A stretch of DNA of 35,742 nucleotides, taken from positions 1 to 35,742 of the forward strand of contig CAMPAL010000012.1 in NCBI GenBank assembly GCA_946631855.1. The letters run 5' to 3'. Below the pieces are notes generated by a model that had not been told where the DNA came from, ran no database searches, and saw nothing but the letters and a program-made list of their open reading frames with translations. Position 1 is the stretch's first letter; every line of letters begins with the position of its first letter. Below are positions 713 to 28,578 of this stretch, piece after piece. This stretch comes from an uncultured Treponema sp. (lineage in GTDB: Bacteria > Spirochaetota > Spirochaetia > Treponematales > Treponemataceae). A program made the translations under genes and the position numbers.

Positions 713-3700
713 CTAATCCATTATAGACACAGGCAAAATATAGGATGTTGAATCAATTGTAAAAGTATCCCATAAAGCTGCAAGGCCTGTAGCATTCTTT
801 TCAAGAACCCATTCGTTTAATGCATCAAGAACATTAGATTTATTTAATGTATATGCAGAAGCTGCTTCAAATTCTGTTCCTGAAAATAAAAATTTACCAA
901 CAGTTGTAGAATTAATTGGTAAGTCTGTCACCAGTTCTTTGCTCAATACAGAGGTTCCATATGGACCAATCGACATGTTATTATGATAATTATATTGAAG
1001 GCACATAGAATTACATTTTGAAGCATCATCAATTATAGCACCAACAATGGTGCCACAATATGATTCCAGGGAAGACGTGAGCCTTGCAGAACTTATACAA
1101 TTTTCTATATCACAAGCACCTACTAAATCCATATAACCAACAATTCCACCATAACCTTCACTACCATTAATGGTCGAAGTATTTCCTGTTGTTAAAAGGC
1201 CATAAAATGCACAATTTACAACATTAGCATCAGTGTCATACTCACTATACAAACCGCCGATAATTCCACCAACAGCTGCTTTTCCACTTACACTGGCAAA
1301 ACTAACACAGTTATATACATTGACAACTCCTTCTGCTCTACCGATTAATCCGCCGGCATTGGTAATTGTTCCACTTCCAGTAGAATTAAGTCCAGTTACA
1401 GCAACATATGATACACAATTATACATATTAATTGAATATGCATTACAAACTATACCACCAATATTTTCTGCATCAGAAACTCCTGTTGCAGTTATAGAAC
1501 CATTTACAGTAAGATCCTGTATAGTACCCGCTGTAACAGAACCAAACATTCCACGATATTCGGATGCTGAGTATGTAACACTTAAACCGTCAATTGTATG
1601 TTGATGACCATAAAACTGACCTCCAAATGGAGTTGAATTATCTACTGCATTACCAATACAAACCCAGGTATTAGAAATAAGGGTAATATCTTTGTAAAGA
1701 TGTATTTCACGACCAATACAAGCTTCTCCAGAATTAACCCAGTTAGAAATCTGTAGTAACTGACTATAATTAAAGACATTTATAATATTATTATTATTGT
1801 TAATATAATCATACTCAGGGCATGTTTCAGGGAAATTACTTCTTTCCAGCCCTTCATAAGAGACTGGTATAGGATAAGTCATTCCTTCATAAAGGAAAGT
1901 TTTATCCCAGGTATTAAAGCTAGTATCTGTAAGTGTTGAAGAAAGAGTTTCTATTCTACCAGACAAAGTTGAAGAAAGATCTGAAACATCTGTAACAGGA
2001 GTAGCTGTATCGGTAGAAGTAGAAGCGAAAGGTTTTCCTAAATCTGAATCATAATACAAAGCAGAAGCAGAAGCATTTGTTGCTTGTGATACAAGAACAG
2101 AACCGCTACCAATTACAAGACCTGCAGAAATACAGTTATCAACATAAGTCTTAGAACTACCATATGTAATTCCAGATGCATTTGCACAGTTTATATATCC
2201 AAAATTTGCACAATTATAAATATAAGTTGAAGTAGCAACTGTATCTCCAAAGCCAAGGATTCCTGCAACTTTTTCAACATTACCAGAACAAATAATACTG
2301 CCTGAATTTACACAATTTGTAATGATTGTTATATAACCAGCATAACCACAAATTCCACCAATATAAGAAGGAGAAGTTCCCGTTCCTGTGGAATTTACGT
2401 AAATATCTATATCTGAAACACAATTACTAATAGTTCCTGTTGAGCTGGAAGACCCAACAAGACCTCCTGAACAAGCACCTGCAGAACCTGAAGTTGTAAT
2501 TTCTATATTGCCTGAAACATATAAATTTTTAATAGTTCCTGCACCCAGTTTTCCAAAAAATGCTGTATAATTAGCTGATGTCGAAAGATTTAATCCTGTT
2601 ATTTTATTATTCTGTCCATCAAAAATTCCTTTAAATGCATAAGAACCTGAAAATAAAGAGGTTGTCCATTCTTCTGTAAGAGCAATGTCATTAGCCAGAT
2701 AAAACTCATACTTAGAAAAATCATAAGACTGAGAATAATCGCGAAGATTTTTTAAATCTTCTTCGGTAGAAATAAGATAATTACCCTGAACTTTATTGTC
2801 ATTATCATACTCGCTGAATGGATGATATAATTTTTCAATTTTACCTTCATTATCAATTCCCCATATATAACTTTGAGCTGTGGTAAAAATTGAATAATCT
2901 ATATCTTCATCTGAGGTTACTAACTGAAGGCCTTCAGCATAATCTGTATTATAAGTAGCAAGTATAAGTTGAGAATTAGTTACTGCTTCGGAATCTTCAA
3001 TGTGAAGCGTAGGAATAACACTTCCGGAACCTTTATAAAGATAAATACTTTTATCACCTTCAAAAGAACATCCGTCTGAAAGATAGATATCATTTGTTGT
3101 ATATAAATAATAGTTCTTAGTATCGTTAAAAGTTGACTTAGAAAAGTTTATCTCTCCAGAAAAGTGACTATTTGTATATACACGCACTTCATAAAGTCCA
3201 CCAGAAAAAGAACATTCATTAAACGATATAGCCCCACTTATATTAGAAGAGTTTTCATAAGTAATACTTACTCCATAATTAGTTTGTAATGTATTTTCAA
3301 TAGAAGTATTATTAAAATTTATATCCATCTCTAATAAATATGGAGCAATATAAACAAGTCCATTTGAACAATTACTTCCTGTAATACTGGAATTAGAAAC
3401 ATTTACAGTTCCAGCTAAGAGATACATTGCTCCAGCCTGTATAGAAGTTGATGGAGCACACTCAAATTTACAATAATCTACATTTAGAGCACCCGCTCCA
3501 GTAGAATATTGTGTTTTTACACAATAACTTTTTTGAGATACAAGAGTAAGGTTTTTAAGGGTTAATTCCTGAGAGTTTCCAGCTAAAACAAACATCTCTG
3601 ATGTAAAATCAGAAGCTCTGGTAATTACAGCATTATTATCAAGATCAGTTTCGTCTGTATTACCATAAGTTTTTACTACAAGATTTTTTACAGTAGATGT

Positions 3701-4732
3701 ATCAATAGTTTCTGAAAGTTCACAACTGGTACCGGCTTTTATATTTATAGTTGCACTTTCCTTTCCATAACCTTTTGCAACTTCAAAAGCTTCTTCAATT
3801 GTCTGGAATGGATCAAACATAGAACCGTAAGTTCCATTTGTAGTTACAGTCGGATCTACATAATATTCATTCTGACTGGCAAATTGAACATCTGTCTCTG
3901 TAACCTCAAAACTTCCATCATTCTTTATAAAACCTCTGGCAGAAACAGATTTCCAGATATTTGTAATCATAGAATTAAAAACATTAACTCTATCATTATG
4001 TCTTATAATAACATTAGTTGAAGAATCATAAAAAGTAAGACTTAATTCATATATACCAGCAGGTATATCAGATTCAGAAATACTGGCAAGCCCTGAAGTA
4101 ACCGCTCTTACATCACCACCATAAGTTACTGAGCTATCATCAAGATTTGTAAGACTATAAGAATATTGTACAACAGAAGTTCCTTCCACCGTAATTGAAA
4201 GATCAACTTGTCCACTTGAAGAAGTTGTTCCGAAAGCCTCTATAATAATCTTCAAGGGGTCTGCCTGCCCTACTGTGTATTCTGTAGTTCCTTCCAGAAT
4301 TTTATTTTCATCAATACAATCATCTGCACTGGAAGCATTATAAGCAGAAGCTGTTATATCATAAGTACCGCTTTCAATATTCAAGAGAAAGGATCTGCTT
4401 GAACTAGGAGTTGTTGTTATAGTTTCAAGACCAGAATCTCTTGGTACAGCAGTCACAATATACAAAACTGATGCTAAAGGAGATGCTGTTGCCATTCGAG
4501 ACACCGACAGACTTGCAGCTTCTTCTCCATTCACTGCAAGGTCTATTATGTCAGGAACGGCACCTCGAGTTCCAATTGAGCCACTTATTGTGTGATAAAC
4601 TCTCTGGACAGGTTCTTCTGTCTCTGTCGCAGGATTTTCTCCGGATGCTGGAGTATTAATAAGATTAAAACAAGATGTTAAAGAGATTAAAACTACAAAA
4701 AGACTTAATAAAACTGTTAATTTTTTCATCAT
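713..4732 (-). CDS. Large lipoprotein: N-terminal beta-sandwich region, YVDP/beta-helix segment, GLUG-like repeats
   Basis: 1339 aa; signal peptide with lipobox ISLTSC; YVDPTVTTNGTYGSMFDPFQTIEEA; repeated GGLVG/GGICG/GGLIG/GGIIG...NCV motifs; SD ggagag upstream. Confidence 0.85.
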   Translation of the reverse strand: MMKKLTVLLSLFVVLISLTSCFNLINTPASGENPATETEEPVQRVYHTISGSIGTRGAVPDIIDLAVNGEEAASLSVSRMATASPLASVLYIVTAVPRDSGLETITTTPSSSRSFLLNIESGTYDITASAYNASSADDCIDENKILEGTTEYTVGQADPLKIIIEAFGTTSSSGQVDLSITVEGTSVVQYSYSLTNLDDSSVTYGGDVRAVTSGLASISESDIPAGIYELSLTFYDSSTNVIIRHNDRVNVFNSMITNIWKSVSARGFIKNDGSFEVTETDVQFASQNEYYVDPTVTTNGTYGSMFDPFQTIEEAFEVAKGYGKESATINIKAGTSCELSETIDTSTVKNLVVKTYGNTDETDLDNNAVITRASDFTSEMFVLAGNSQELTLKNLTLVSQKSYCVKTQYSTGAGALNVDYCKFECAPSTSIQAGAMYLLAGTVNVSNSSITGSNCSNGLVYIAPYLLEMDINFNNTSIENTLQTNYGVSITYENSSNISGAISFNECSFSGGLYEVRVYTNSHFSGEINFSKSTFNDTKNYYLYTTNDIYLSDGCSFEGDKSIYLYKGSGSVIPTLHIEDSEAVTNSQLILATYNTDYAEGLQLVTSDEDIDYSIFTTAQSYIWGIDNEGKIEKLYHPFSEYDNDNKVQGNYLISTEEDLKNLRDYSQSYDFSKYEFYLANDIALTEEWTTSLFSGSYAFKGIFDGQNNKITGLNLSTSANYTAFFGKLGAGTIKNLYVSGNIEITTSGSAGACSGGLVGSSSSTGTISNCVSDIDIYVNSTGTGTSPSYIGGICGYAGYITIITNCVNSGSIICSGNVEKVAGILGFGDTVATSTYIYNCANFGYINCANASGITYGSSKTYVDNCISAGLVIGSGSVLVSQATNASASALYYDSDLGKPFASTSTDTATPVTDVSDLSSTLSGRIETLSSTLTDTSFNTWDKTFLYEGMTYPIPVSYEGLERSNFPETCPEYDYINNNNNIINVFNYSQLLQISNWVNSGEACIGREIHLYKDITLISNTWVCIGNAVDNSTPFGGQFYGHQHTIDGLSVTYSASEYRGMFGSVTAGTIQDLTVNGSITATGVSDAENIGGIVCNAYSINMYNCVSYVAVTGLNSTGSGTITNAGGLIGRAEGVVNVYNCVSFASVSGKAAVGGIIGGLYSEYDTDANVVNCAFYGLLTTGNTSTINGSEGYGGIVGYMDLVGACDIENCISSARLTSSLESYCGTIVGAIIDDASKCNSMCLQYNYHNNMSIGPYGTSVLSKELVTDLPINSTTVGKFLFSGTEFEAASAYTLNKSNVLDALNEWVLEKNATGLAALWDTFTIDSTSYILPVSIMD

Positions 4733-4740
4733 CTTCTCTC

Positions 4741-7700
4741 CTACTCACTCACTGTAATTGTAAAGGAATCTGTGCAGGCAACTCCATTTAAGGTAGCTCC
4801 TACAGTCAGAGTATATGTTCCAGCCTGATAGAAGACTCCTTCTGAAGTTTCGAAAGTAATAGTCTTTGTTGATTCATCACTTCCATCTGCTAAAACAGCA
4901 CCTGTATTAATTAAATTATTATATAAAAGACTGCACCACCAGTTGCTCAAACTTGTAATTTCATTTCCTGGTGTAAAATCTTCATCTGAATAAGCAGTAA
5001 TTGTCAATGTTTTTTCTGTAGATGTAATAGTTTCAGAACTTAGTTTGAAGTAAATAACTGTTGAAAGAGGATCTGAAATTCCATCATCAACAACCATACC
5101 TTTTATACGAATATGTCCACTTTCATTTATATAATGGGTATCAACATTCATCTTAAAGAAATTTGTAAGGCCGCTCATATCACCTGAGGTCTCTTCTTTT
5201 AAGGCAACTATGTAAGTGGTTGAATCGCTGTCTACATAATTTACTGTGGGAAGTTCCCTGGCCGAAGTAAGTGTGGCATAAGTTTCACCATCATCAGTTG
5301 CTGCAAGTAAATTACTTGCTTCTCTATCAGAAGTTCCAGAACCAAAGGCAAAATAATTTCTTGGAAAAATAAAACCATAAGATGAATTGCTTAAATATAC
5401 ATTTGACAGCCAGCCTTTTCCAGAAACATAAAGACGGCCTGTATTAACAATTGAATATGCAGAAGCGTCATCTAAGCTGAGGGCAGAAGAATCTATTGTA
5501 AAATATCCGGCTGAATTAATATGAATATTCTGACCAGAAACTCCAGAAGTAGCATTACTAACATTATCTTGCATACTTACATTTCGTATAAAACTGTAGT
5601 ATTCCTTCTTACAATCTGAAGCTACAACAATTCCTCCACCATTTCCAGATACACATGTATTGTTATAGATAGAACCTCCATTCATCTGGAATTTTCCACC
5701 TATATAAACAGCTCCTCCAGAAGAACCGGCCTGGTTGCTAAACATATCTGTATCAGATACCAGCACAGTTGAAGGAAGAGTCATATCTGTTGCTGAATTA
5801 CAAATATAAACTGCTCCCCCCTGATTTTGTGCAACATTATTTGAAATTACACAAGAAGAAATATTTACATCACCACAGTCAAGAGAAAGTGCTCCTCCAT
5901 ACGAACCTCTGTTATTCTGAATAACTGTACCCCGTAAAGAAAGGGAGATTAAAGTGCTTTGTATAGTACCGTCAGAATCATCTGTATCAGGTAATAAAGC
6001 AATTGCTCCACCACGACCAGCAGAGGAATTATTACTAATTGTGCAGGATTCAAAAGATGCAGAACTTGTGTCATTAATGAAAACACCACCGCACATAGTA
6101 TCAGATGTATTGTTAGAAATAACTGTATTATAAGCTATAATAGTACTGCCATCTCTTAAAAAAACTGCCCCAGCTTTTGGTGTATAATTATTTTTCACAG
6201 AAAAATCACCTGAATAACCGCCTGAAGCCCCTAAACTAAGTCTTACATTACTTACAGCGTAAATAGCACTTCCATTTCCGGTTACAGAAACATTTCCATC
6301 ACTGGCAGCTTCTCCACCTATCAATCCTTTTGTTAGAGTTAATTCAGAATTTTGTCCTGCAAAGATTCCACCGCCCATAGAGTATGATCTGCAGGCACGA
6401 ATTACATTTGAAGAAGAATTTGAGTAAAGTTTGCCATACACTCTTATTCCACCACCAGGATAAGAAGTTCCTATATTATCATTATTTTGAATAACAACAT
6501 TGCTGTCTAAAGTGAGTTCTGGTAATTCACCAGTTTTATAAAGAACAATAAGACTGCATTCTGATGTATGACCGGTATTAACCCCAGTTCCATTATTTCC
6601 GGCAGGACCATCATCATCCCAGACAGCACCACCATCAAGAATTACATCTTTCAGGGTTGTATCAGTAGTTATTGTAAGAAGTGCATCGCTTGGGAAAGTA
6701 GAATGTCTTATTACGATTACTGGATTTGTACCATCACCATATTTAGAAGTATCTGAAATTCCAGAAGGATTATATGGACTATCTGCACTATCAATTACAA
6801 TTTCATCAAGCACATAAACTTTTTCTGCCAGAGGATTGTCTATTAAGTAAAATTTTGCTTCATCAATTGTTGCAAGAGCCTGGGATGGTGAAAAACCTTT
6901 GTTTGTATCTGAACCAATGCCCACTGATGGAGGATCTACATAAATATATTTGTAGTTCCATTTTGCATAAAATGGTTTTACCCTATCAACAACTCCATCG
7001 CTATCACTATCTTCAAGATATGAAGAAGTCAAAAGTGTGCCATCTGGAATTGCAGTATTACAGTCGTTATCTAAATAAAAACCTGCAAAAGTAACTGTAT
7101 TTCCGTCAGACAAAGGGTAAGTTGCAGTATCAAAAGTATCTGCAGATGGAATTTCCTGACGGTAGGATAATTCATAATAAGTTCCAGTAGCATCTGCGGT
7201 AAATCCATCATAATTTCCAGAATAAGATTTAGGATTTTCTGCATCACTTGAAAAATCATACAAATAAACCCGATATTTTTTTGGAGTCCATTTTGCATAT
7301 AAAACTACATCTTCTTCTTTGCTTCCTGCTGTCCACCCGGTAACAGGACTTCCTGTACAAGCTGAATTATCATACCAGCCGCCAAAATCGTAATGAGGAG
7401 CAAAAGGTTCCTGCAAAGTTACATTTGTTGAAGAATTGTATACATCAATATTTGCACTATTATCAACTTCTTCATCTCCATCACCAGAAACATTATCTGC
7501 ATAAGTAATAGAGTAAGATTTATTTAAATCGGTGTAAGTAACTTCACCACTGGTAGATTGTCCACCAAGAATTTTTACATAATTTACTCGGGTTGCGGTA
7601 GAACTTGACGATGAATCGGTGAAAAACTCCAATCTCAAGAAGTAATATCCCCTTGGAATGTTATTTTCTACAATGCTGACAAAATCACCACTTCCGTCTG

Positions 7701-8370
7701 CGGCTGCTTCTGGAATATATTCTGATTGTGATAAAGTCTGATACTGTTTAGTTCCATCTGAATCAAATGTATAAAGCTGAACTTTTACTTTAGTAACTCC
7801 ATTTAGAGGAAGATTAAATTTTACATCTAAAGTTCCTGCTGTAATTTCTGTTGCTTCATCATTAAAACTGAAGGTAAAATCAAGAGTATTTGTGCCAGAT
7901 GTCCCAGGACTTTCTACATTATTCTTTCTGGCAACAGCATAAATTTTTTCAACACCATCAACCATCTTGTATGCATATAAAGATAAATCCCAGCAGCCAG
8001 GATACAAAACAATTTGATCTGTACCCATCTGACTGATAGAAGTCCAGCTGCCTAAAACTTTTGTTTCTCCAACAGAAAGACCAATATCTTCCTCAGTCAT
8101 ATCTGTTGAAAGTAACTTACCTTTCAAAACATATTTTGAAACCGAAGAACCTGTTTCTCTTGGAGGTCTTAGAGTTCTGCTGACTATATCTGCATTTTCT
8201 TTCCAGTCTGTAACTCTGATTGAAAAATAAAATTTATTATCAGAAGCTGCTGCGGGATTATTTTGAAAATTTGAATTATTTCCATTAATTAAATCTGAAC
8301 ATGAAAAAGTAAAAAATATCAGAGAAAGAATAAAAATCAAATTAAACTTAGAAAAAATCTTTTTTATCAT
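4741..8370 (-). CDS. Large lipoprotein: InlB B-like repeats followed by right-handed beta-helix with GGA[ILV] repeats
   Basis: 1209 aa; lipobox FFTFSC; two GWY...YAKW InlB/Flg_new-like repeats; YVDPPSVGIGSDTNKGFSPSQALATIDEA; repeated NN...GGAI/GGAL/GGAV motifs. Confidence 0.85.
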   Translation of the reverse strand: MIKKIFSKFNLIFILSLIFFTFSCSDLINGNNSNFQNNPAAASDNKFYFSIRVTDWKENADIVSRTLRPPRETGSSVSKYVLKGKLLSTDMTEEDIGLSVGETKVLGSWTSISQMGTDQIVLYPGCWDLSLYAYKMVDGVEKIYAVARKNNVESPGTSGTNTLDFTFSFNDEATEITAGTLDVKFNLPLNGVTKVKVQLYTFDSDGTKQYQTLSQSEYIPEAAADGSGDFVSIVENNIPRGYYFLRLEFFTDSSSSSTATRVNYVKILGGQSTSGEVTYTDLNKSYSITYADNVSGDGDEEVDNSANIDVYNSSTNVTLQEPFAPHYDFGGWYDNSACTGSPVTGWTAGSKEEDVVLYAKWTPKKYRVYLYDFSSDAENPKSYSGNYDGFTADATGTYYELSYRQEIPSADTFDTATYPLSDGNTVTFAGFYLDNDCNTAIPDGTLLTSSYLEDSDSDGVVDRVKPFYAKWNYKYIYVDPPSVGIGSDTNKGFSPSQALATIDEAKFYLIDNPLAEKVYVLDEIVIDSADSPYNPSGISDTSKYGDGTNPVIVIRHSTFPSDALLTITTDTTLKDVILDGGAVWDDDGPAGNNGTGVNTGHTSECSLIVLYKTGELPELTLDSNVVIQNNDNIGTSYPGGGIRVYGKLYSNSSSNVIRACRSYSMGGGIFAGQNSELTLTKGLIGGEAASDGNVSVTGNGSAIYAVSNVRLSLGASGGYSGDFSVKNNYTPKAGAVFLRDGSTIIAYNTVISNNTSDTMCGGVFINDTSSASFESCTISNNSSAGRGGAIALLPDTDDSDGTIQSTLISLSLRGTVIQNNRGSYGGALSLDCGDVNISSCVISNNVAQNQGGAVYICNSATDMTLPSTVLVSDTDMFSNQAGSSGGAVYIGGKFQMNGGSIYNNTCVSGNGGGIVVASDCKKEYYSFIRNVSMQDNVSNATSGVSGQNIHINSAGYFTIDSSALSLDDASAYSIVNTGRLYVSGKGWLSNVYLSNSSYGFIFPRNYFAFGSGTSDREASNLLAATDDGETYATLTSARELPTVNYVDSDSTTYIVALKEETSGDMSGLTNFFKMNVDTHYINESGHIRIKGMVVDDGISDPLSTVIYFKLSSETITSTEKTLTITAYSDEDFTPGNEITSLSNWWCSLLYNNLINTGAVLADGSDESTKTITFETSEGVFYQAGTYTLTVGATLNGVACTDSFTITVSE

Positions 8371-8384
8371 CTTTTCTTATCCCC

Positions 8385-10016
8385 TTAATTTTGAACCTGG
8401 AAGACCTGGTCAGCTGAGAATTGTTCACCATTGTCTGTTACTACTACAACTATACTGTGATATCCTGGACTTAAAGTAACTGTTTGTGAACCAGTAAGAG
8501 AATCTGCTCCAGAAAGTAATTCACCATCCAGTATCCACTGAACAACTATAGAAGTACTGCTTAAACTTGGAGTGTATGTAGCGGCAAAAGATAAAGTTCC
8601 ACCGGTGTAAGAAACACTAGAAATTGTGAGGTCCCCATCACTTTCTTCCGGATAAGCTGGACTGACTCCAGAATTTTCTACCCATCTTGCGTAGAATTCT
8701 TTATTACCTGTCTCAGTGCCTTTTTCCCAGCCAGATACAGAAACCCCTGCAAAAGTAGAAGATTCATACCATCCAATAAATGTATAATCATTTCGAGAAA
8801 TATCTGATACAGAAGGAAGAGTTACAATATCTTCAATTGTATAAGTTGTAACAGGTGAAGCAGACGAATCAAAACTTCCACCGTTTAAATAATATGCAAT
8901 AGAATAAATTTCCCGACTCCACTTTGCATAAATTGTAAGGTCAGACATATTACTTGTTGGGCAAGCTGTTATTTCCTGAGTATATGCAGAATCAAGATAC
9001 CAGCCTTCAAAACTATAACCTTCATGAGAAGCAAGATCTGTAACAGCTGGTAAAACAAAAGGATTGCTTCGGGTATAACTTTCAGGTGGTGTAAAGCCAC
9101 TTCTCCATTCTGGACTTGCATAAGTAATACCATGGTCAAGAACCCAGGTGATGGAATAAGTAATTTCATTCCATACAGCAGTATAAACCGCACTCTGAGC
9201 TGGATATGTTAAACTTGTTGCAGTTGAAGTTTCAGTTGTAGAATCTGCATAAGAAATATTCCAGTGACTAAAACTTGCTCCTTCTGAAGTTCTATCAGGT
9301 ATAGAAACTCCTGTAACAGGCAATCCATAATAACCATACAAATTCAAAGGACTTGTAACTCCATCATTATAATCTACAGTAAGGAATACTTGAATTCTGT
9401 CATAATAAATCAGAACTTCTGTACTTCCATCATATCTGATTGTTTCCTGGAAGAAGGGCTGGGCAAAAAAGCCTGGAACATTAAGGGCCGCTGCTGCAGT
9501 AGAATGATTTGTAACACCAACCAGATTCTGACGTAAAGAAGTATTTTCTTCATATCCATCCATAGTCAGATTCTGGAACATATGTCTTACAACATAAGGA
9601 ATATCATCACGTTCTTCTACAACTCCATAAAACAGATAAGACTTTGTATCAACAAAAACTTGTAAAACCTGCTGATTATCTTCCGAAAGCTGAATTGTAT
9701 CAGGACAGGTATTATCTGCTGTTTCACTAACCCCCAAAAACTTAAAATAAGCTACTTTATAGCCTGGAATAAGCTGGGAAAGTTCTGCCGCAGGGAAAGA
9801 AGACTGATCTATTGTAGTTCCAATTCTAAAATAGCGGACTACATATTCATCAGAAGTTTCATTCAGATAGAATTTAAAAACAGAACAAGTGTCTTTTTCA
9901 AGATCGTTTTTTAAGTCTCCAAACCAGTCGATTGAACAGGAACTTGCGAGGAGGCCTGTCAGAATTAATAAAAGAGAAAAAAATAATGTTCTGGTTTTAT
10001 AAAAAAATCTCTGCAT
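8385..10016 (-). CDS. Lipoprotein with InlB B-like repeats
   Basis: 543 aa; lipobox LLASSC; two clear and one degenerate YSI...GY.F.GWY...YAKW repeats; C-terminal Ig-like region. Confidence 0.85.
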   Translation of the reverse strand: MQRFFYKTRTLFFSLLLILTGLLASSCSIDWFGDLKNDLEKDTCSVFKFYLNETSDEYVVRYFRIGTTIDQSSFPAAELSQLIPGYKVAYFKFLGVSETADNTCPDTIQLSEDNQQVLQVFVDTKSYLFYGVVEERDDIPYVVRHMFQNLTMDGYEENTSLRQNLVGVTNHSTAAAALNVPGFFAQPFFQETIRYDGSTEVLIYYDRIQVFLTVDYNDGVTSPLNLYGYYGLPVTGVSIPDRTSEGASFSHWNISYADSTTETSTATSLTYPAQSAVYTAVWNEITYSITWVLDHGITYASPEWRSGFTPPESYTRSNPFVLPAVTDLASHEGYSFEGWYLDSAYTQEITACPTSNMSDLTIYAKWSREIYSIAYYLNGGSFDSSASPVTTYTIEDIVTLPSVSDISRNDYTFIGWYESSTFAGVSVSGWEKGTETGNKEFYARWVENSGVSPAYPEESDGDLTISSVSYTGGTLSFAATYTPSLSSTSIVVQWILDGELLSGADSLTGSQTVTLSPGYHSIVVVVTDNGEQFSADQVFQVQN

Positions 10017-11755
10017 CAGAATCTGACTCCAAAAGAAACAAAAGGTATTAAACTGCCTGTTGGCATTTCTTCTATAAATGTATGGGTAAAATTAGCTCCA
10101 ATTTCTAAAGCTGCAACATTAACTGGCATAAAGACTAAAGAAAGTTCTCCATCAGCACAAATAAATCCGTAACTATTTGATGAAGTCTGTTTTCTTGTAG
10201 TGTCTTCGGGATAAGAAACATTAATTTGGAAAAGAGAAACTCCCGCACCTGCTTTTACACCAAGATACAACTTATCTTTTATAAGAGAAATTCGTCCTGC
10301 AAGATTCAGACACACATTCTCTTCATTCATAAGATAAGAAATAACAGAATTACTTTTTTCGACATAAGTACCTGTTGCATTTATGTCAAAACCAAATTTG
10401 TTATTTCCAATTTTAACAGGCAGATATGTAAAATCAAATTTTATTGTAGGAAGCACAGGCCATGCAGAAAGACTGTAAAAATTCTTATCATAAATATTCC
10501 AGGTAAGACCACCGCCCAGCTGAATATTGAAATCTGAAACCTGACGATTCAAAATAGCTTCCCATTTCTTCTGACGTGCAAGTTCCTTATCTTCTTCTTT
10601 CTTTTCTTCAGCAAGACGACGTTCTTCTTCGAGTCTTTCCTGTTCTTGTAATTCTTCCTCAATTTTAAGCTGCTTCTGATTTTCCTTAAAGACTTCTTCT
10701 GCTTCTTTTGCTCTTGCCTCTCTTTCGGCAACTGCCTTAGCCCTTTCCTGAGCCTGAAGTTTTTTTGCTTCTATACGTTTTTCAAGATTTTCATCTTCTT
10801 CTTTCATTTTTTCTGCAGCTGCTTTTGCTCTTTCTTCGGCTTCTTTCTGTCTTTGTCGAGTTTCTTCTATCTTTCTATTACGTTCTGCAATTCTTTCTTC
10901 CTGGAGACGACGTTTTTCTTCCTGCTGTCTTCGTTTTTCTTCCGCTGCAAGACGAGCTTCTTCCTGTTTTTTAAGTTCAGCCGCTTTTTTTGCTTCTTCT
11001 GCAAGTCTTTTCTCTTCCAGTTTCTGCTCTTCAAGTCTCTTCTTTTCTTCTTCTTTTTCTAAGATACGGGCTTCTTCTTCGGCTCTTTCCTTATCTATAT
11101 TTTCAGCCACTCTCTGCTCTGTTTTATCTGTACTTTTTGATATTTCAGATTTTTTTTCTTCAATATTGATAACTTCCGAATCTGTACTCAAACCGCTTGG
11201 ATTAGTTACACGAAGCTTCCAGTCCCCCTCTTCTACTTTTGGGAAGACTGCAGAAGCGGCAACTACCTGACCTGAACTTTCTTTTGTTTTCAGAGTACCA
11301 GTTACAACTTCGTTTGTCTGAGTATTTATCAATTCAATACTTGTTTCTTCTTCAATATTTTTAATTTCAACAGGAAGAGAAAGCTTTTCATTTTTATCAA
11401 TTTCTGTTTCCACCACTTTTGGAACAGACACACTAGGTGCAAGGGCCTTAAGAACGGTGAATTTTCTCCATTCACTCACACTTGACTGACGGCCCAGAAA
11501 ATCAAAAGCATAAACTCTATATTCATAATCACCAGACAAAAGATTTACTGAAATTGAATTAGATGAAGTTTGATGTGTAGAAACTTTTCCATCCGAAAGA
11601 TTTTTTATTTCAACTTTATATTCAATGGCGTTTTTATCAGACTGCCATTTTAAAATCTGTTCAAATTTACCCTTAGACTCTGAATACAAAGAGACTGTCT
11701 GTAAAAGAAAAATGAGGAAAATCAAAATGCTGGAAAATCTAAATCTCTTACTCAC
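10016..11755 (-). CDS. Signal peptide - FN3-like domain - long charged helix (TolA-like) - C-terminal beta-barrel domain
   Basis: 579 aa; FN3-like SGDYEYRVYAFDFLGRQSSVSEWRKFTV; ~185 aa E/K/R/A-rich helix; C-terminal amphipathic strands ending SFGVRF (terminal Phe). Confidence 0.8.
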   Translation of the reverse strand: MSKRFRFSSILIFLIFLLQTVSLYSESKGKFEQILKWQSDKNAIEYKVEIKNLSDGKVSTHQTSSNSISVNLLSGDYEYRVYAFDFLGRQSSVSEWRKFTVLKALAPSVSVPKVVETEIDKNEKLSLPVEIKNIEEETSIELINTQTNEVVTGTLKTKESSGQVVAASAVFPKVEEGDWKLRVTNPSGLSTDSEVINIEEKKSEISKSTDKTEQRVAENIDKERAEEEARILEKEEEKKRLEEQKLEEKRLAEEAKKAAELKKQEEARLAAEEKRRQQEEKRRLQEERIAERNRKIEETRQRQKEAEERAKAAAEKMKEEDENLEKRIEAKKLQAQERAKAVAEREARAKEAEEVFKENQKQLKIEEELQEQERLEEERRLAEEKKEEDKELARQKKWEAILNRQVSDFNIQLGGGLTWNIYDKNFYSLSAWPVLPTIKFDFTYLPVKIGNNKFGFDINATGTYVEKSNSVISYLMNEENVCLNLAGRISLIKDKLYLGVKAGAGVSLFQINVSYPEDTTRKQTSSNSYGFICADGELSLVFMPVNVAALEIGANFTHTFIEEMPTGSLIPFVSFGVRF

Positions 11756-14567
11756 CGTACAGTTTTCCCGGGTCTATTGTTTCAATCTTTCCTGGCAATT
11801 CAAATTTAATTTTGAAATTACCGCCTGCTGCTTTACTGCTCTGTTCTTCAAAACCATCACGTGCATGAACATAAGCTGTAACATTCCATTCAAAATCTCC
11901 AATATCAAGTATTGAAAGATCTTTTATTTTTACTTCAGAATTTCTAAGGTTCTTTGCCTCATAAATTCTCTTCAAACTTCCATTTGGATTTACATAATAA
12001 AGTGTAAATTTATAATCGGTAGCACCAGCAACATCAGCCCAGTCAAAACTGATATTTCTGTTCTTTTTAAGATATTCAGAATCAATTACCTGTGTCTGAG
12101 AAGGAGAAACCAACCTTGGTGAAGCAAGTTCTGGAACCGGTCTTACTTCAAATGAATAAGTTTCCTGAGCATCAAGAGGAATTCCTTCTGCTGAACTTGC
12201 ACGAATTGTCCACTGATAATTTCCTGCTTCCAGTCTTTCAAGACTAATCTGATTTCTAGGATTATTGATAGTCTTTACTACCTTCATAGTTCCATTTGCT
12301 TGATGTTTTCTCAGAACAAATTCTGAACGGGCAACTTTATCACCCTGTCTCCAGACTAATACAGTTGGACTACGAAGTGCTGTGAGTCCCTGAATACTTG
12401 CATTATTTGCAGGAGAAACCAGATGTACCGGATCTGGCCCACGAATAGTAAAATTAACTTCGGAAATATGACTGCTTCTTCTTGGAGCAATTTCTGTTTC
12501 TTCACTGAAGGCCTGAACAGTTCCCCTGTAACTTTCTGGAGGCAAAGCGATATTGGCAAAATTTTCCCGGGTAGAAGAAACTTCTTTTACAAGTTTATTG
12601 TTATTTCCATAAATCTTAACTTTGTAATAATCAGCCTCTCTTACTGGAGCCCAGGCAATTCTTACCCTTCCTTCACCATAAACAGTTAATGTTGAAGAAG
12701 CCAAAGGTGAAGTAATATTTGGTCTTGCAAGAGGATTCAAAACAGAAAGACTTCTTGGACTTGTATAAATTAATTCACCAGTTAATGGGTTTTCAATTGC
12801 AACTCGCCAGTAATAACTTCCTGCATTAAGACTTACATCTCTAACTTCAGGAACGCTGCTTCTTATCTCTTTCAAATCCTGCTTAAAATCTGAAGATGAA
12901 GAAATCTGGAAAATTGAAGTTATATTTCCACGGTTATATTCAGGAGCTAACTTCCAGCTGAACACAGTAGCAAGAAGTTTCTCTTTTTCAGCAGCAAACG
13001 CATCTGGTGGATAAACCAGTTTATTTTCCCCAGGAACATATTCTTCAACTCTGAAAGATCTTACATCAGAGGAAACAGGCACTTTATCAGAAGGAGAAGT
13101 TCTTACAACCCTCCAGTAGTAAGTTCCCTGAGGAAGACTTTCCAAAGTAAAATTATCTGTTACACGAGTTAGTTTAGTTGTTTTTTCGTAAACATCATCC
13201 TTAAAAGCCTGATCTTTTGCGACTTCCAGTTTATACTCAGCCGATTTTGCGTCAGATTTCCACTGGAAAGTTACAGGACTAACCTTCATAGGACTAAAAG
13301 TCAATTTACCTTTATGAGCAGGAATACTTAATTTTGGTGGAAGGACTTCTGCAAGTTTTTCAACAGAGAAAGATGATATTGCAGAAGATTTTCCGTCCCC
13401 GATAGAATTTACTTTATAATAAGGAGTAATTCGCCAGTAATAAGTTCCCTGACCAAGTTTTTTCAAAGTGAACTGTTCATTTGTAATATCATCAGAAATA
13501 ATAGGATTAGACAAATCCTGAGAGGCAGAAACTTCAAGATGATAATGTTCTGCATAATCATTTCCAGACCAGGCCAGCTGAACGGCAGGAAAATCTTCTT
13601 CATGATAACTAAAAGAAGAGCCCCGCACTGGTGATTTTAAAACTACAGGAGCAACGGCTTCAACAGTAATTCTACCGCTTGAACCAAGAGCCTTCTGTCC
13701 CTGAGGGTAAACTCTCCAGTACAATCTTCCAAGCGGAGAATCAATCTTAATTTCATTTTTATTATTTACCGAATAAGTGTTCTGTATTTTGCTGAAATCT
13801 TTATCAAAAGAAGTTTCTACTGTAATACTATCTTTTTCATATTCACCAGAAGCTGTCCATTTCAGAAGGACTGGAATAGATTTTTCCTGATTAAAAGCCA
13901 GAAGTTTTGTATCGCTTGAAATTGAAGTAACTGTCAAAGGTTCTTTTTTAATTTCTCCGGAAGAAGCAACTTTTACAGTTTCACCCGAAGTTAATACCTG
14001 AGCCTGTTCTCTTCCATCGGCAGAATGACTTGTTACAGTTGCATTTCCAGCCTGAAGCTTAAAACTGTTATCTCCGGAAGAAGAATTTGTGGCTGCAGAA
14101 AGTTTACTTCCTTTATCAAGCTTAAAGACAGAACCATTTTCCATTGCAAGAGAAACAGATTTCTGCTCGCTGGATGCAGTTGTATCAAGTTCGATATTAC
14201 CGTCATTAACAGAAAGGGTTAAACCTTTTTCTTTTGTGTAAGAAACCTGAATCATGGTATTTTCATGCAAATCAAGAACTGTACCATCTTCAAAGGTGAT
14301 TTTTGCAGTCGCACCATCTGCGGTACGGATTGTATCTGAATCATAAAGAGGAGAATTCTGCTGTAATCTTTCCCAGACAACCCGATCATTGTATTTTCGC
14401 TGGGCTATCTTACGTTTAAATTCAATTTTTGCAATCTGATCTTTATCTTTTCGAGAAGAACTGCTGTTCAGGTCTTTCCAGAACATATAAATACTTGCAG
14501 CACAAACTCCTGAACAGATGATTACAATAAGAAAATCACGTAGCCTTAATCTTGCTTTCTTCTGCAT
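11748..14567 (-). CDS. FecR-domain protein with N-terminal TM and tandem FN3-like repeats
   Basis: 939 aa; TM near N-terminus; FecR-like VWERLQQNSPLYDSDTIRTADGATAKITFEDGTVLDLHENTMIQV; repeated G.YYWRV motifs. Confidence 0.85.
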   Translation of the reverse strand: MQKKARLRLRDFLIVIICSGVCAASIYMFWKDLNSSSSRKDKDQIAKIEFKRKIAQRKYNDRVVWERLQQNSPLYDSDTIRTADGATAKITFEDGTVLDLHENTMIQVSYTKEKGLTLSVNDGNIELDTTASSEQKSVSLAMENGSVFKLDKGSKLSAATNSSSGDNSFKLQAGNATVTSHSADGREQAQVLTSGETVKVASSGEIKKEPLTVTSISSDTKLLAFNQEKSIPVLLKWTASGEYEKDSITVETSFDKDFSKIQNTYSVNNKNEIKIDSPLGRLYWRVYPQGQKALGSSGRITVEAVAPVVLKSPVRGSSFSYHEEDFPAVQLAWSGNDYAEHYHLEVSASQDLSNPIISDDITNEQFTLKKLGQGTYYWRITPYYKVNSIGDGKSSAISSFSVEKLAEVLPPKLSIPAHKGKLTFSPMKVSPVTFQWKSDAKSAEYKLEVAKDQAFKDDVYEKTTKLTRVTDNFTLESLPQGTYYWRVVRTSPSDKVPVSSDVRSFRVEEYVPGENKLVYPPDAFAAEKEKLLATVFSWKLAPEYNRGNITSIFQISSSSDFKQDLKEIRSSVPEVRDVSLNAGSYYWRVAIENPLTGELIYTSPRSLSVLNPLARPNITSPLASSTLTVYGEGRVRIAWAPVREADYYKVKIYGNNNKLVKEVSSTRENFANIALPPESYRGTVQAFSEETEIAPRRSSHISEVNFTIRGPDPVHLVSPANNASIQGLTALRSPTVLVWRQGDKVARSEFVLRKHQANGTMKVVKTINNPRNQISLERLEAGNYQWTIRASSAEGIPLDAQETYSFEVRPVPELASPRLVSPSQTQVIDSEYLKKNRNISFDWADVAGATDYKFTLYYVNPNGSLKRIYEAKNLRNSEVKIKDLSILDIGDFEWNVTAYVHARDGFEEQSSKAAGGNFKIKFELPGKIETIDPGKLYGE

Positions 14568-16833
14568 CTAAGTTTACTTCTCCAAAATCAGGAGTTGGAA
14601 TTCCTAACAAAGTTCTAACTTCTGCCAGTGTTTTTGGACCTTTTGAACCAATGGCACGGGCACAATCAGGATCAAGTTTGAATTTAGGGTCTCCTTTTCT
14701 AAAGAAACCTTCAATATCAAACTGAGGCATATTTACAACTCCATAGAAATGCTGTTTACCCTTTCCTTTTACTTCAAAAGTAACAGGAATTACTTCAACA
14801 ACAACTTCATATTTAAGATTTTCAGGTTTAATTTTATAATTATTTTCAGGACAACGAATAAAATCTTTCTTTAACAAATCATAAGTATCCTGAGTGATTA
14901 ACATATCAGTTCCACAAGGTTTATTTGATGATTCTGTACGACTGGCAAGGTTTACGGCATCACCAATAGAAGTAAATTCCATCTTGTCGTAAGAACCCAT
15001 AAAACCAACTGTAGCACGACCAGAATTTAAGCCGGAACCAATGCGGATATGAGGTTTATACTTTGCATAAGGTTCGCCTTCATGAGCTTTGGTGAAAGCT
15101 TCTGCCTTTTTGTTATATTCCATCAGAGCATAACGCATGGCAGTTGTTGCCATAATAGCACTTACAGCATCCTGTTTTACATGTTTTTCATGAATTGCCT
15201 TAAATTTTGCCTTACGAGGATCAGAATCAGGCCATTTTTCATAATCCAGGCTGTCATCACGCAGAACGCCCCAGCAGGCCATGATGGCATCACCTTCAAA
15301 CTTATCAACATTTCCACCAGAAATAGAAATACAGTTTACCATACGGCCCATGTAATCATTCAAAAATCCGATGATTTCTCCCGCAGACTTTTCACCAAAA
15401 CGCTTGTTGAATCCATCAGAAATTGCAGTAAAGCCTCGAATATCTGAGAAGAAAATTGTGATATCTTTCAAATGTGGCTGGAAGTCAATTTTATGAGTAA
15501 CAATAGCTCTTGTAACTCCCTTATTGGTCAACCGGGTAAAAGTATTAAGGATTTCCTGTTCCGCTTTTGTAGAACGAATAAGAACACCAATTTCATCCTT
15601 TCGCTTTGTCTTAAGCTGATTTAAAAGAGGTGTTTCAAAATTACCGGCATTAATCTCGTTTGTAACCGCAGTAAGTTCTTTAAGTGGTGTACTCAAAGAT
15701 TTAGAAAAGAACCATACAATCATAATTGCGATTGAAAGAATGGCAATTGTAAGATAAACATTTCGACGGGTGGTTGCATTTACTGCTTCAAGTACTATTC
15801 GGGTCTGAACTTCAGTTATAACAGCACAACCTGCAAAAGTTAATTTTGTAAAAGCACCAATATATTCTACATCTTCAGTATTAACATAAGTAAGCTGTTC
15901 ACTTCCTGTTTTTGCAGAAGGAAGAAGTTTTACCAGATAATGATCCCGATATTCTGCTGCCCTTTTCATAAGGTCCAGGTCAGGGTGAACAATAATTGTA
16001 CCGTCATCATTAACTAAGAATGAAAGATTTATAGAACTGGTTGAATAAGATTCAGAAAGATCTTCCAGAGATGAATAAATTACAACTACATCATTATTAT
16101 CATCTGAGCGAATTGGTGTAAAAATTGCCACAATCTGTTCACCAAAAAAAGGAGTTGCATTCATAACTGAAACAATTCCATTTTTTGCACGGTCAACTTT
16201 TTCACTTTCCTGTTCTGAATAAAGATTTACAAGTTCTGAATCCAGCTCATGAGCAGCAAAGTAAGCTCTGTTCACAAAAACATCATCATCATAAATAAAT
16301 TTAAAAGCGACGATTCCTTTGTTTCTTTCAAAAAAACGGGCTGCCTTATTCTGCAACTCTTCTTTTTCATCATCAGAAGAAATATTGTCATAAAACATTC
16401 CGACAGAAGAAACAATCGAATTAAAACGACTTTCTGTATCTGCGGCTGTACGACTGTTAATTGTCAGGTTGTTTTCTTCGGCATTAACCCTTACATCAGA
16501 AGAAATGTAATAAGATACAAGAACTGTAATTAAAATAAGGGAAAGACTTACAATGGCGGATATAATTCCAATCAATTTTCCACCAATTGAATATCTCGAC
16601 TTAACTGAACTTACAGTCTTCTTTTTATTCTTTACAAAATCCGCTGGCCTGGCGGCAGAATAAGTTTTTGAACTCTCAACTTTTTTGTCCACTACAGGAG
16701 TTTTTTTTACAATTTGTTTTTTAACTTCAGTACTTTCTGGACTTATCTGCTTAAGAATTGAAACTGATTCATCATTCCCGGCAGGCTTACCTCTGGGAAC
16801 AAAGGAGCCATAATTAATATCATTCTTACTCAC
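14536..16833 (-). CDS. Class III adenylate/guanylate cyclase with N-terminal TM, Cache-like sensor and HAMP
   Basis: FFSDIRGFT, GGNVDKFEGDAIMACWG and FTSIGDAVNLASRTESSNK catalytic motifs; HAMP-like region after second TM. GTG at 16833 (MSKNDINYGS...) preferred over the track's TTG at 16872, which coincides with the -35 box. Confidence 0.88.
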   Translation of the reverse strand: MSKNDINYGSFVPRGKPAGNDESVSILKQISPESTEVKKQIVKKTPVVDKKVESSKTYSAARPADFVKNKKKTVSSVKSRYSIGGKLIGIISAIVSLSLILITVLVSYYISSDVRVNAEENNLTINSRTAADTESRFNSIVSSVGMFYDNISSDDEKEELQNKAARFFERNKGIVAFKFIYDDDVFVNRAYFAAHELDSELVNLYSEQESEKVDRAKNGIVSVMNATPFFGEQIVAIFTPIRSDDNNDVVVIYSSLEDLSESYSTSSINLSFLVNDDGTIIVHPDLDLMKRAAEYRDHYLVKLLPSAKTGSEQLTYVNTEDVEYIGAFTKLTFAGCAVITEVQTRIVLEAVNATTRRNVYLTIAILSIAIMIVWFFSKSLSTPLKELTAVTNEINAGNFETPLLNQLKTKRKDEIGVLIRSTKAEQEILNTFTRLTNKGVTRAIVTHKIDFQPHLKDITIFFSDIRGFTAISDGFNKRFGEKSAGEIIGFLNDYMGRMVNCISISGGNVDKFEGDAIMACWGVLRDDSLDYEKWPDSDPRKAKFKAIHEKHVKQDAVSAIMATTAMRYALMEYNKKAEAFTKAHEGEPYAKYKPHIRIGSGLNSGRATVGFMGSYDKMEFTSIGDAVNLASRTESSNKPCGTDMLITQDTYDLLKKDFIRCPENNYKIKPENLKYEVVVEVIPVTFEVKGKGKQHFYGVVNMPQFDIEGFFRKGDPKFKLDPDCARAIGSKGPKTLAEVRTLLGIPTPDFGEVNLDAEESKIKAT

Positions 16834-16843
16834 AATAGCAAAA

Positions 16844-16872
16844 ATTATACTATATAAGCCACATTTAAACAA
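16844..16872 (-). promoter_or_regulatory. Putative promoter of the cyclase-led six-gene cassette
   Basis: Minus strand TTGTTT (16867-16872), 17 nt, TATAAT (16844-16849); only 10 nt between -10 and GTG. Confidence 0.65.
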
Positions 16873-16947: not shown

Positions 16948-17175
16948 TTATTTTTCTTCTTCGTTTTTAGCCAAATCTTCTTTTTTTGCTTCTTTTTTGT
17001 CTTTAATATCAGCTGCACCAATGAAAAGACAAATCAGACCAACAAAAGCTGCAAGAACAGGAACTGAACCTTTTAAGAAGGCAATTACATCTGCTCCCCA
17101 GTTAAGAGGGCACATTGGTAATACAGCAAAAACTGTAAATGCAATAAAAATCAGACCTAAAATAATAGCAACCAT
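16948..17175 (-). CDS. Small two-TM protein with charged Lys/Glu tail, hypothetical
   Basis: 75 aa; SD-like gaggtg before ATG; hydrophobic segments then DIKDKKEAKKEDLAKNEEEK; followed by a terminator. Confidence 0.75.
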   Translation of the reverse strand: MVAIILGLIFIAFTVFAVLPMCPLNWGADVIAFLKGSVPVLAAFVGLICLFIGAADIKDKKEAKKEDLAKNEEEK

Positions 17176-17395
17176 AATTCACCTCAAATTCGATTTTTAA
17201 TAATTAAAAGATAATCCAAATAAGTAATGCTTGCAAGAAAATAATTCTCAAAAACTTATTGACACTTTCGTATTTATATAGCATTTTACATTTTAGTATA
17301 AAAAAAACGAACCAACATTAGTAGCTAAGTTTTTATAAAAATGTACTCTACTGCACGTATGTGTTAGTTATCATTTTTGAATCGGGGTCACTTGA

Positions 17396-18586
17396 ATGAA
17401 AGGAAGTCAGGTTACCATTGATCATGTATCCAAGAGATTTGGCGACTTTGTTGCTTTGGATGACATCAACTTTACTATTAAACCGGGAGAGTTTTTCTCT
17501 CTGCTCGGTCCTTCAGGATGTGGAAAAACTACACTTCTCCGCATTATCGCAGGTTTTGAATTTCCAGATGATGGAGTTGTTCTTTTTGATGATAAGAATG
17601 TAGTTTCTTTACCACCAAACAAGAGACATTCAAACACAGTTTTCCAGACATATGCACTTTTTCCTCATATGACAATTTATGAAAATGTTGCATTTCCACT
17701 GCGTCTGAAGAAATTACCAAAGGACGAAATCGACAAAAAAGTTCGCGAATACGTACACCTTGTACAGTTGGATGAACACATTAACAAAAAACCAAACCAG
17801 CTTTCTGGTGGTCAGAAACAGCGTGTTGCAATTGCCCGTGCCCTCATCAACGAACCAAAAGTTCTTTTACTTGATGAACCTTTATCAGCTCTGGATGCAA
17901 AACTCCGCGCAAATCTTCTGATTGACCTGGATCGTCTGCATGATCAGATTGGAATTACATTTATTTATGTTACTCACGACCAGTCTGAAGCGCTTTCTGT
18001 TTCTGACAGAATTGCTGTAATGAATCATGGTCATGTTTTGCAGATTGGAACTCCTTATGAAATTTACGAAAGTCCTGCAACTCAGTTTGTTGCCCAGTTC
18101 ATTGGTGAAACAAATCTCTTTAGTGCAGAAGTAGCAGACTGTGTACCTCACAAAGATTCTGCAGGAAATGATGATTTTATGACAACTCTTGCAGTTCCTG
18201 AACTTGGACATCAGGCTCCACTTGCAACTGACACAGAAGCAACTGCAGCCTTAGACCGTTATATGCAGGTAACTGATTATGAACATACTGATAAAGGACA
18301 GAAAGTAGCCTTTACTATCCGCCCTGAAAAAATCCGCATTACGCTTGAACCTCCTGCAACAGGAGCTCGAACTGATGTAAATGTATTTAAAGGTGTTGTT
18401 GAAGAACCAATTTATTCAGGTTTCCAGTCAAAATTCTATGTAAAACTTGAAACTGGAAAAGTAATTAAAGTTTTCAAACAGCATACTGACTACATGGATG
18501 ACGGTCCTGTTATTCACTGGAAAGATGAAGTATACGTTTCCTGGTCTGCAGAAGACGCATACATCGTTGAAGACATTGAGAAATAA
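17396..18586 (+). CDS. potA: Spermidine/putrescine ABC transporter ATP-binding protein
   Basis: Walker A GPSGCGKTT, signature LSGGQKQRVAIARAL, Walker B VLLLDEPLSALD, TOBE-like C-terminus; followed by potB/C/D-type genes. Confidence 0.93.
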   Translation: MKGSQVTIDHVSKRFGDFVALDDINFTIKPGEFFSLLGPSGCGKTTLLRIIAGFEFPDDGVVLFDDKNVVSLPPNKRHSNTVFQTYALFPHMTIYENVAFPLRLKKLPKDEIDKKVREYVHLVQLDEHINKKPNQLSGGQKQRVAIARALINEPKVLLLDEPLSALDAKLRANLLIDLDRLHDQIGITFIYVTHDQSEALSVSDRIAVMNHGHVLQIGTPYEIYESPATQFVAQFIGETNLFSAEVADCVPHKDSAGNDDFMTTLAVPELGHQAPLATDTEATAALDRYMQVTDYEHTDKGQKVAFTIRPEKIRITLEPPATGARTDVNVFKGVVEEPIYSGFQSKFYVKLETGKVIKVFKQHTDYMDDGPVIHWKDEVYVSWSAEDAYIVEDIEK

Positions 18587-18625
18587 AAGTTTCAGCAATT
18601 ATTATTTCTTTTTTTGGAGTTATAA

Positions 18626-19651
18626 GTGAAAAAGAACAGTTCTTTTCAGTTAAAAATTGCCGCAAAAGCACATGCTGCTAAATATAAAAAAGTAAATCCA
18701 GGTCCTGCCTATGCATGGCCAATGGGCTTGTGGTTTACAGTTTTCTTTGTTGTACCAATTGCAATCATCCTCTGCTATTCTTTTATGAAGAAAGATATGC
18801 ACGGTGGTGTAAAGGCAGAATTTACTTTTAATGCATACAAAGCAATTTTTTCCAGAGATGCTGATACAGGAAAATTCATCTACCTGCCAATTCTCATTCG
18901 TACTCTCTGGATGACCCTGCTTTCTACCCTGGTTTCAATTTCTATTGCACTTCCATGCGGATATGCAATTGCCAGAAGCAAGCATCAGACTGCCCTTTTA
19001 ATTCTGGTAATCATTCCTTTTATGACAAATTCCCTTATCAGAATTTTTGCATGGCAGTCTATTCTGGGAGAAGAAGGTCTTCTTAATCAGATTTTCCATT
19101 TCTTCGAATGGTTATGGCATTTTATTTGCGGAAAGAAAGACTGGGTATTTTCTCCACACAAATTCATGTACACCAAGGGAGCAGTTGTTCTGGTAAGTAT
19201 TTACATGTACCTGCCTTATGCAATTCTTCCAATTTTTACAGCAGTAGACAGATTTGACTTTTCTTTACTTGAAGCAGCCCGTGACCTTGGAGCAACAAAA
19301 GCACAGTCAATGATTAAAATTCTTATTCCAGGCATTAAAAGTGGAATTGTAAGTTCATTAATCTTCACTTTTATCCCTATTTTTGGTAATTACACCGTTC
19401 CTCAGCTGGTAGGTTCAACCAAGAGTTACATGCTTGGAAACATCATCATGGACCAGATTCAGAAAGCAAGAAATATTCCTCTTGCATCTGCATTCTCTGT
19501 TGTTCTTACAATCATCACAATGGTTGCAATTTTATTCATGCTCTCTTCTGACAAAAAAGAACAGAACCTTAAAAAGTCTTCTGGCAAAGAAGATTCAGGA
19601 GTTCCAGAAAAAACAATTGCTGCTCCTGTTCAGACAAAAAAAGAGGCTTAA
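18626..19651 (+). CDS. potB: Spermidine/putrescine ABC transporter permease
   Basis: GTG start with SD ggag; multi-TM; EAARDLGATKAQSMIKILIPGIKSGI EAA loop. Confidence 0.92.
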   Translation: MKKNSSFQLKIAAKAHAAKYKKVNPGPAYAWPMGLWFTVFFVVPIAIILCYSFMKKDMHGGVKAEFTFNAYKAIFSRDADTGKFIYLPILIRTLWMTLLSTLVSISIALPCGYAIARSKHQTALLILVIIPFMTNSLIRIFAWQSILGEEGLLNQIFHFFEWLWHFICGKKDWVFSPHKFMYTKGAVVLVSIYMYLPYAILPIFTAVDRFDFSLLEAARDLGATKAQSMIKILIPGIKSGIVSSLIFTFIPIFGNYTVPQLVGSTKSYMLGNIIMDQIQKARNIPLASAFSVVLTIITMVAILFMLSSDKKEQNLKKSSGKEDSGVPEKTIAAPVQTKKEA

Positions 19652-19653
19652 TC

Positions 19654-20529: not shown

Positions 20530-20597
20530 AAAAAATAAGGGGGTCAAAGGCTCCCTGTTTTATAAAAAATCTATTTTTTTTAATTTTGGAGGCGATT

Positions 20598-28471: not shown

Positions 28472-28578
28472 AGAATAACTTTTTGTAATATAAAATTTTA
28501 GGGTAAATCACCTTATACCGTTTCCTTCTCCCCGCTCTTATAATGTTTCTAAATAAACATTTTTGGGAGAATTACGAT

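Follow-up and report, generated by a model that had tools for sequence, protein, structure and literature searches.

A cyclase, FecR and barrel gene trio conserved across spirochaetes is a candidate module for outer-membrane-to-cAMP signalling

The window analysed here, a stretch of 35,742 nucleotides (nt), corresponds to contig C12 in a draft genome of 2.65 Mb (completeness put at 77%) from an uncultured Treponema whose named relatives are Treponema, chiefly from rumen and gut. It carries six adjoining genes, the first three of which encode an adenylate cyclase (CYC), a FecR-domain protein (FECR) and a protein with FN3/immunoglobulin (Ig) domains, a helix and a barrel (BAR). The evidence tips, by a modest measure, toward this trio being a signalling module at the cell surface that leads from the outer membrane to cyclic AMP (cAMP). 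We favour this reading because the gene order is almost invariant, gene overlaps are kept, FecR and BAR co-occur, the order persists in further orders and classes of spirochaetes and trios are inherited as units; because the cyclase retains its catalytic residues, proteins that bind cyclic nucleotide monophosphates (cNMPs) are present and BAR is confidently predicted to be a barrel; because an apparent Treponema pallidum version contains the only class III cyclase found in its genome and has fibronectin-binding peptides at predicted outer loops; and because a FecR-domain protein beside a cyclase has been proposed to form one pathway in Campylobacterota (PMC9239204).

The initial annotation had described the six genes as one collinear minus-strand cassette with overlaps of 32, 8 and 1 nt and gaps of 14 and 8 nt, and a recount of the six open reading frames (ORFs) gave exactly these values. 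Pfam also upheld the families it had named (class III cyclase, HAMP, FecR, InlB-type repeats and GLUG), with Cache below threshold. The features are as follows.

14536 to 16872, minus strand: CYC, adenylate cyclase with two membrane helices, a periplasmic dCache-like domain, HAMP and a class III catalytic domain.
16844 to 16872, minus strand: promoter-like site before the cyclase, TTGTTT-17-TATAAT, read from the sequence and conserved in the nearest relative (locus L035).
11748 to 14567, minus strand: FECR, from Pfam and an AlphaFold2 model.
10016 to 11755, minus strand: BAR, FN3/Ig-helix-barrel protein, from AlphaFold2, Foldseek and alignments.
10022 to 10531, minus strand: predicted barrel domain of BAR (residues 409-578), eight strands in the AlphaFold2 model.
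8385 to 10016, minus strand: LP3, lipoprotein with InlB/List_Bact repeats adjoining BAR (Pfam, lipobox).
9807 to 9938, minus strand: conserved N-terminal segment of LP3 (residues 27-70, from the lipidated Cys), 29.8 bits with the family model.
4741 to 8370, minus strand: LP2, lipoprotein with one List_Bact repeat and Chlam_PMP-type repeats, a variable accessory (Pfam, lipobox).
713 to 4732, minus strand: LP1, lipoprotein with GLUG repeats, a variable accessory (Pfam, lipobox).

FecR searches returned 139 loci, which encode 118 different FecR proteins; 111 of these were long (>800 residues). Among these 111 distinct full-length homologues, a cyclase gene lay directly upstream in all 110 testable cases and a BAR gene directly downstream in 108 of 109, the sole exception (L092) being a locus in which an antisense ORF had been picked between FecR and BAR. 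Cyclase and FecR genes mostly overlapped by 32-41 nt. Both long FecR and BAR were present in 63 of 98 genomes of the genus, and neither was present in 33. Two genomes scored as having BAR alone: one (G070) carries a BAR-lipoprotein copy on a short contig, and the other (G023) was rejected as a genome lacking FecR, its FecR being cut by the contig end. Of 20 loci in other spirochaete orders and classes, all had the cyclase upstream and 16-17 had a BAR-family gene following on the same strand; small multi-contig genomes of the same class (1.0-1.8 Mb, probably Borrelia-like) gave no match. Distances between the parts were correlated (r 0.81 for FecR-cyclase and 0.72 for FecR-BAR, including the contribution of common descent; ≤0.08 in shuffles). 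Stronger evidence that the trio is inherited together, as it appears to be, comes from genomes with several trios, whose parts nearly always have the same foreign trio as nearest neighbour.

Neighbourhood analysis therefore divided the six-gene claim: cyclase, FecR and barrel genes proved conserved and linked, whereas all six occur together only in the nearest relative (L035), and we rejected the six as one conserved cassette. The invariant part is cyclase-FecR-BAR, often followed by one LP3-type lipoprotein, with LP1 and LP2 variable. This conserved unit is smaller yet far more widespread than the six-gene cassette, it sets the constant core in gut treponemes apart from a lipoprotein cargo that varies and, as far as the literature searched goes, a phylum-wide trio with an Ail/OmpA-type barrel is new. 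Could the genes simply share an operon and a physiological setting, their proteins never touching? The fact that submodules are found apart would fit, but order and overlaps are kept across the order, paralogous trios are co-inherited and the predicted places of the products are complementary across three envelope layers; we regard mere co-expression as very unlikely.

CYC matched the Pfam families Guanylate_cyc and HAMP, and dCache_1 below threshold. Its catalytic residues (D477, K524, D528, T634, N641 and R645, counted from the TTG start) were each found in at least 133 of 137 aligned sequences. They make up the class III set of type IIIb, namely two metal-binding Asp, a substrate-binding Lys and Thr/Ser, and a transition-state Asn and Arg; judged by these residues, CYC is a class III adenylate cyclase (IIIb type) with its catalytic residues intact. 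Enzymes of this type produce cAMP, and bicarbonate often stimulates them. FECR has an N-terminal membrane helix (residues 10-34), a FecR domain (approximately 44-225; PF04773, E 2.8e-12, above the cut-off) and approximately seven FN3/Ig-like domains (approximately 230-920). An AlphaFold2 model built from 42 sequences showed the same single helix, FecR domain and approximately seven FN3/Ig domains, with a predicted template modelling score (pTM) of 0.42, which leaves the placement of the domains relative to each other open. The FecR profile had no match among PDB sequences, and Foldseek with the model returned generic Ig/FN3 chains only. A protein so built may span the periplasm.

These features leave next to no probability to classical FecI-FecR-FecA signalling with FecR as anti-sigma factor, a candidate that we rejected. 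FECR has the PF04773 domain and weakly resembles E. coli FecR (E 3e-4), and in both systems a FecR domain stands in the periplasm, with a protein of the outer membrane on one side and an output in the cytoplasm on the other. However, FECR lacks the N-terminal cytoplasmic anti-sigma domain, because only about nine residues precede its membrane helix; neither an extracytoplasmic function sigma factor nor an adjacent TonB-dependent receptor was found among the other window genes scanned; and BAR is predicted to have eight strands, unlike a TonB-dependent receptor.

BAR had no Pfam match of its own. It comprises a signal sequence, two FN3/Ig domains (residues 33-200), a variable helix rich in Lys and Glu (217-403) and a C-terminal barrel (409-578). 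The AlphaFold2 model (45 sequences) had a mean predicted local distance difference test score (pLDDT) of 82.4, with most barrel residues above 90, and again a pTM of 0.42, with the same latitude in relative domain placement. Foldseek matched the barrel to OmpA, Ail, OmpX and NspA. The predicted eight strands are accompanied by a C-terminal aromatic residue, Phe579, and 90 of 108 BARs end in Phe. We are confident in the prediction that BAR is an OmpA/Ail-type eight-stranded outer-membrane barrel behind two FN3/Ig domains. It shares the barrel fold with OmpA, OmpX and Ail and differs from them in its N-terminal FN3/Ig domains and in being encoded in a cyclase operon. Ail binds fibronectin and laminin. 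Placement of cyclase, FecR and BAR at the inner membrane, periplasm and outer membrane, respectively, as first proposed, agrees with the predictions. The proposal that an envelope-spanning helix is an essential element of BAR fared less well: the helix varies in length and is missing in more divergent relatives, and we rejected it as a necessary periplasm-spanning rod.

In the signalling module that we favour, BAR would be held in the outer membrane by its Ail/OmpA-type barrel, with loops outside (both fold and loop side are predicted) and periplasmic FN3/Ig domains. The neighbouring lipoprotein, in many treponemes, may dock on BAR through a conserved N-terminal segment and thereby contribute binding domains rich in repeats. 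A single helix would hold the FecR-like protein in the inner membrane, from which its FecR domain and FN3/Ig chain would cross the periplasm to link BAR with the cyclase. A contact at the surface or a bound ligand, possibly aided by a small ligand in the Cache domain, would then alter the cyclase through HAMP, and the cAMP produced would act via cNMP-binding proteins. The physical complex, the direction of the signal and the ligand are all inferred.

The initial annotation had pointed to a related cyclase locus in T. pallidum around TP0483-TP0485, and this locus apparently is the same trio without the lipoproteins. One searched genome (G110), a single contig of 1,139,633 bp, has a trio at approximately 514-519 kb with a third gene read as 374 residues; its fit to the published Nichols-type genome leads us to infer that these genes are TP0485-TP0484-TP0483. 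They resemble the window trio in number, order, overlaps and intact catalytic residues (all six are kept), and differ in a shorter FecR-like protein and in lacking downstream lipoproteins and a long BAR helix. The cyclase is the only one of class III found in that genome, which also encodes four ORFs with five cNMP-binding domains in total. In its FN3 part, the third protein is clearly homologous to BAR (E 5.6e-20 in a one-sequence search and 2e-15 over the whole genome), and its barrel part matches more weakly (hhalign probability 69%, 13% identity). According to reviews, TP0483 binds fibronectin, with binding peptides at residues 274-289 and 316-333, and laminin via residues 179-374 (PMC5421087, PMC10118025). 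In two alignments, both fibronectin peptides fall on L2 and L3, two loops predicted to face outward, together with the flanking residues, a match that, at 13% identity, is suggestive only. Placing TP0483 in a phylum-wide trio is new as far as the literature searched goes. A protein of little-known structure and disputed location thereby gains a testable fold, place and partners, and the locus offers a route by which the syphilis spirochaete, with its reduced genome, could link the cell surface to the one class III cyclase found in it.

Several points weigh against a trio that works as one signalling module. The parts are separable, as three sets of loci show: the window's own genome has a second cyclase-FecR pair (L074, G000:C58, 8076-11472) in which FecR is short, a ThrA-like gene comes next and BAR is absent; one locus (L243, G101:C19, 6590-11279) has a FecR-BAR pair without an adjoining cyclase; and at four others (L238, L239, L244 and L245) BAR is followed by a large lipoprotein without FecR or cyclase. 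From the second case it follows that the output of the FecR-BAR module may be exchangeable. To these are added the latitude in domain placement in both models, the dispute over whether TP0483 lies in the outer membrane (PMC10118025) and the Cache domain, which could sense a ligand by itself. That last point can be extended into a sensor of small molecules or envelope state in the periplasm, with signal binding by the Cache domain, FecR as a scaffold at the inner membrane and BAR as no more than a brace to the outer membrane. The dCache-like domain with HAMP and the cyclase-FecR pair without BAR agree with such a sensor, but BAR is kept beside FecR in 108 of 109 cases and in other orders and classes, the window's dCache match is below the Pfam cut-off and none is listed for the T. 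pallidum-like cyclase. We consider this sensor improbable.

Comparison with described systems indicates that the trio is a variant of known FecR-linked cyclase clusters. In Campylobacterota a class III adenylate cyclase with CHASE2 is encoded beside the FecR-domain protein of the proposed pathway (PMC9239204), and the same adjacency holds in all 110 testable trios. Unlike those clusters, the trio has a dCache-HAMP sensor (dCache_1 being sub-threshold in CYC) in place of CHASE2, FN3/Ig domains on FecR and an FN3-barrel protein as third gene, and the phosphodiesterase and TPR genes of Campylobacterota were not seen at the trio. Burkholderia has operons of LysM-FecR and CHASE2 histidine kinase genes (PMC5192318); there too a FecR-domain envelope protein accompanies a membrane sensor enzyme and genes overlap, whereas the output is a histidine kinase and response regulator, LysM replaces FN3 and there is no barrel protein. 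Within the literature searched, most subscription journals lying outside it, no paper joined FecR, adenylate cyclase and Treponema.

A further link leads to Leptospira. BAR matched the NCBI LIC11435 family (NF047756) at 66.4 bits (E 2e-18), below the curated cut-off of 380 bits; by sequence it is homologous to this family and, by the cut-off rule, not a member. No genome searched passed the cut-off, and the best family match in them was the third gene of a trio (G272). LIC11437 of Leptospira interrogans has been described as an adenylate/guanylate cyclase (PMC3798601) and LIC11436 as a confirmed fibronectin binder (PMC11350617); from locus order, LIC11436 would be the FecR member of LIC11435-LIC11436-LIC11437. 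Adhesin reports from Treponema and Leptospira may thus be tied to one conserved operon. We advance tentatively, as a possibility somewhat short of even, that the trio is an ancestral spirochaete transenvelope receptor in which an Ail-like barrel, joined in gut treponemes by docked lipoproteins that can be exchanged, meets extracellular matrix or a surface and the contact is reported as cAMP; the supposed adhesins TP0483 and LIC11436 would then belong to a receptor and not be adhesins only, and the receptor would be the sole class III cyclase input of T. pallidum.

The gene after BAR encodes a lipoprotein of >300 residues at 67 of 104 loci, compared to 92 of 620 control pairs, by a loose lipobox pattern that also marks 26% of other ORFs; in the window, LP1, LP2 and LP3 all have the lipobox Cys. 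The first 45 residues past the lipidated Cys of BAR-adjacent lipoproteins form a recognisable family. A model of this segment gave held-out areas under the curve (AUC) of 0.90 and 0.93 when the negatives were, respectively, second lipoproteins from the cassettes concerned and other lipoproteins, for test sequences <60% identical to training sequences and with shared descent remaining in the AUC. In the window LP3 scored 29.8 bits, LP2 4.3 and LP1 1.0. This segment, new as far as the literature searched goes, may have a docking role on BAR. Two lipoproteins from cyclase-free BAR clusters (L244 and L245) share a motif, YNEPVK-YLEYW, close to the lipid Cys. A third (L239, 2992-6378, minus strand) has a C-terminal FGE-sulfatase domain, possibly a variable display end like other FGE-type domains.

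A complex primarily for adhesion or surface display, with BAR and FecR tethering large surface lipoproteins or assisting in their placement and with a co-expressed cyclase that regulates the adhesive state instead of reading it, would account for the enrichment of large lipoproteins after BAR, for their conserved N-terminal segment, for BAR-lipoprotein sets that lack cyclase and FecR and for the reported binding of fibronectin and laminin by TP0483 (PMC10118025, PMC5421087). Yet the most constant partners are cyclase and FecR, and the lipoproteins vary and are missing at the apparent T. pallidum locus and many others. We judge this alternative unlikely, while allowing it appreciable weight.

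The six window genes plausibly form one transcription unit, given their overlaps and the lack of terminators: a minus-strand scan revealed no terminator-like site at any of the five junctions, as the initial annotation had reported. The promoter it had placed before the cyclase was recovered as a sequence, TTGTTT-17-TATAAT, with a counterpart in the nearest relative (L035; TTGTTT-17-TATACT). A generic sigma-70 scan was powerless here (53 sites, compared to 59 ± 7.4 in shuffles), and the case for this promoter therefore comes from conservation. The TTG taken as the cyclase start (16872) falls inside the conserved promoter-like -35 box, and translation more likely begins at a conserved GTG (16833). 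Downstream of the six genes, rplM has its own promoter-like site (TTGACT-18-TATTAT, 704-675).

Upstream of the cyclase is a small membrane-protein ORF (approximately 76 residues, 16950-17178, minus strand), which is kept in L035; in the window, though not in L035, a hairpin at approximately 16915-16876 lies between this ORF and the cyclase. A divergent plus-strand operon for a polyamine-type ABC transporter (17396-21644; ATPase, two permeases and solute-binding protein) follows, and such an operon adjoins the trio in many relatives within the genus. Shortly past it lies a gene for a GGDEF-EAL protein of cyclic-di-GMP turnover (21813-23480), placing a second nucleotide messenger nearby. Lastly, the window encodes a glycosyl hydrolase of family 10 (28543-29823), which fits a fibre-degrading treponeme of the gut or rumen.

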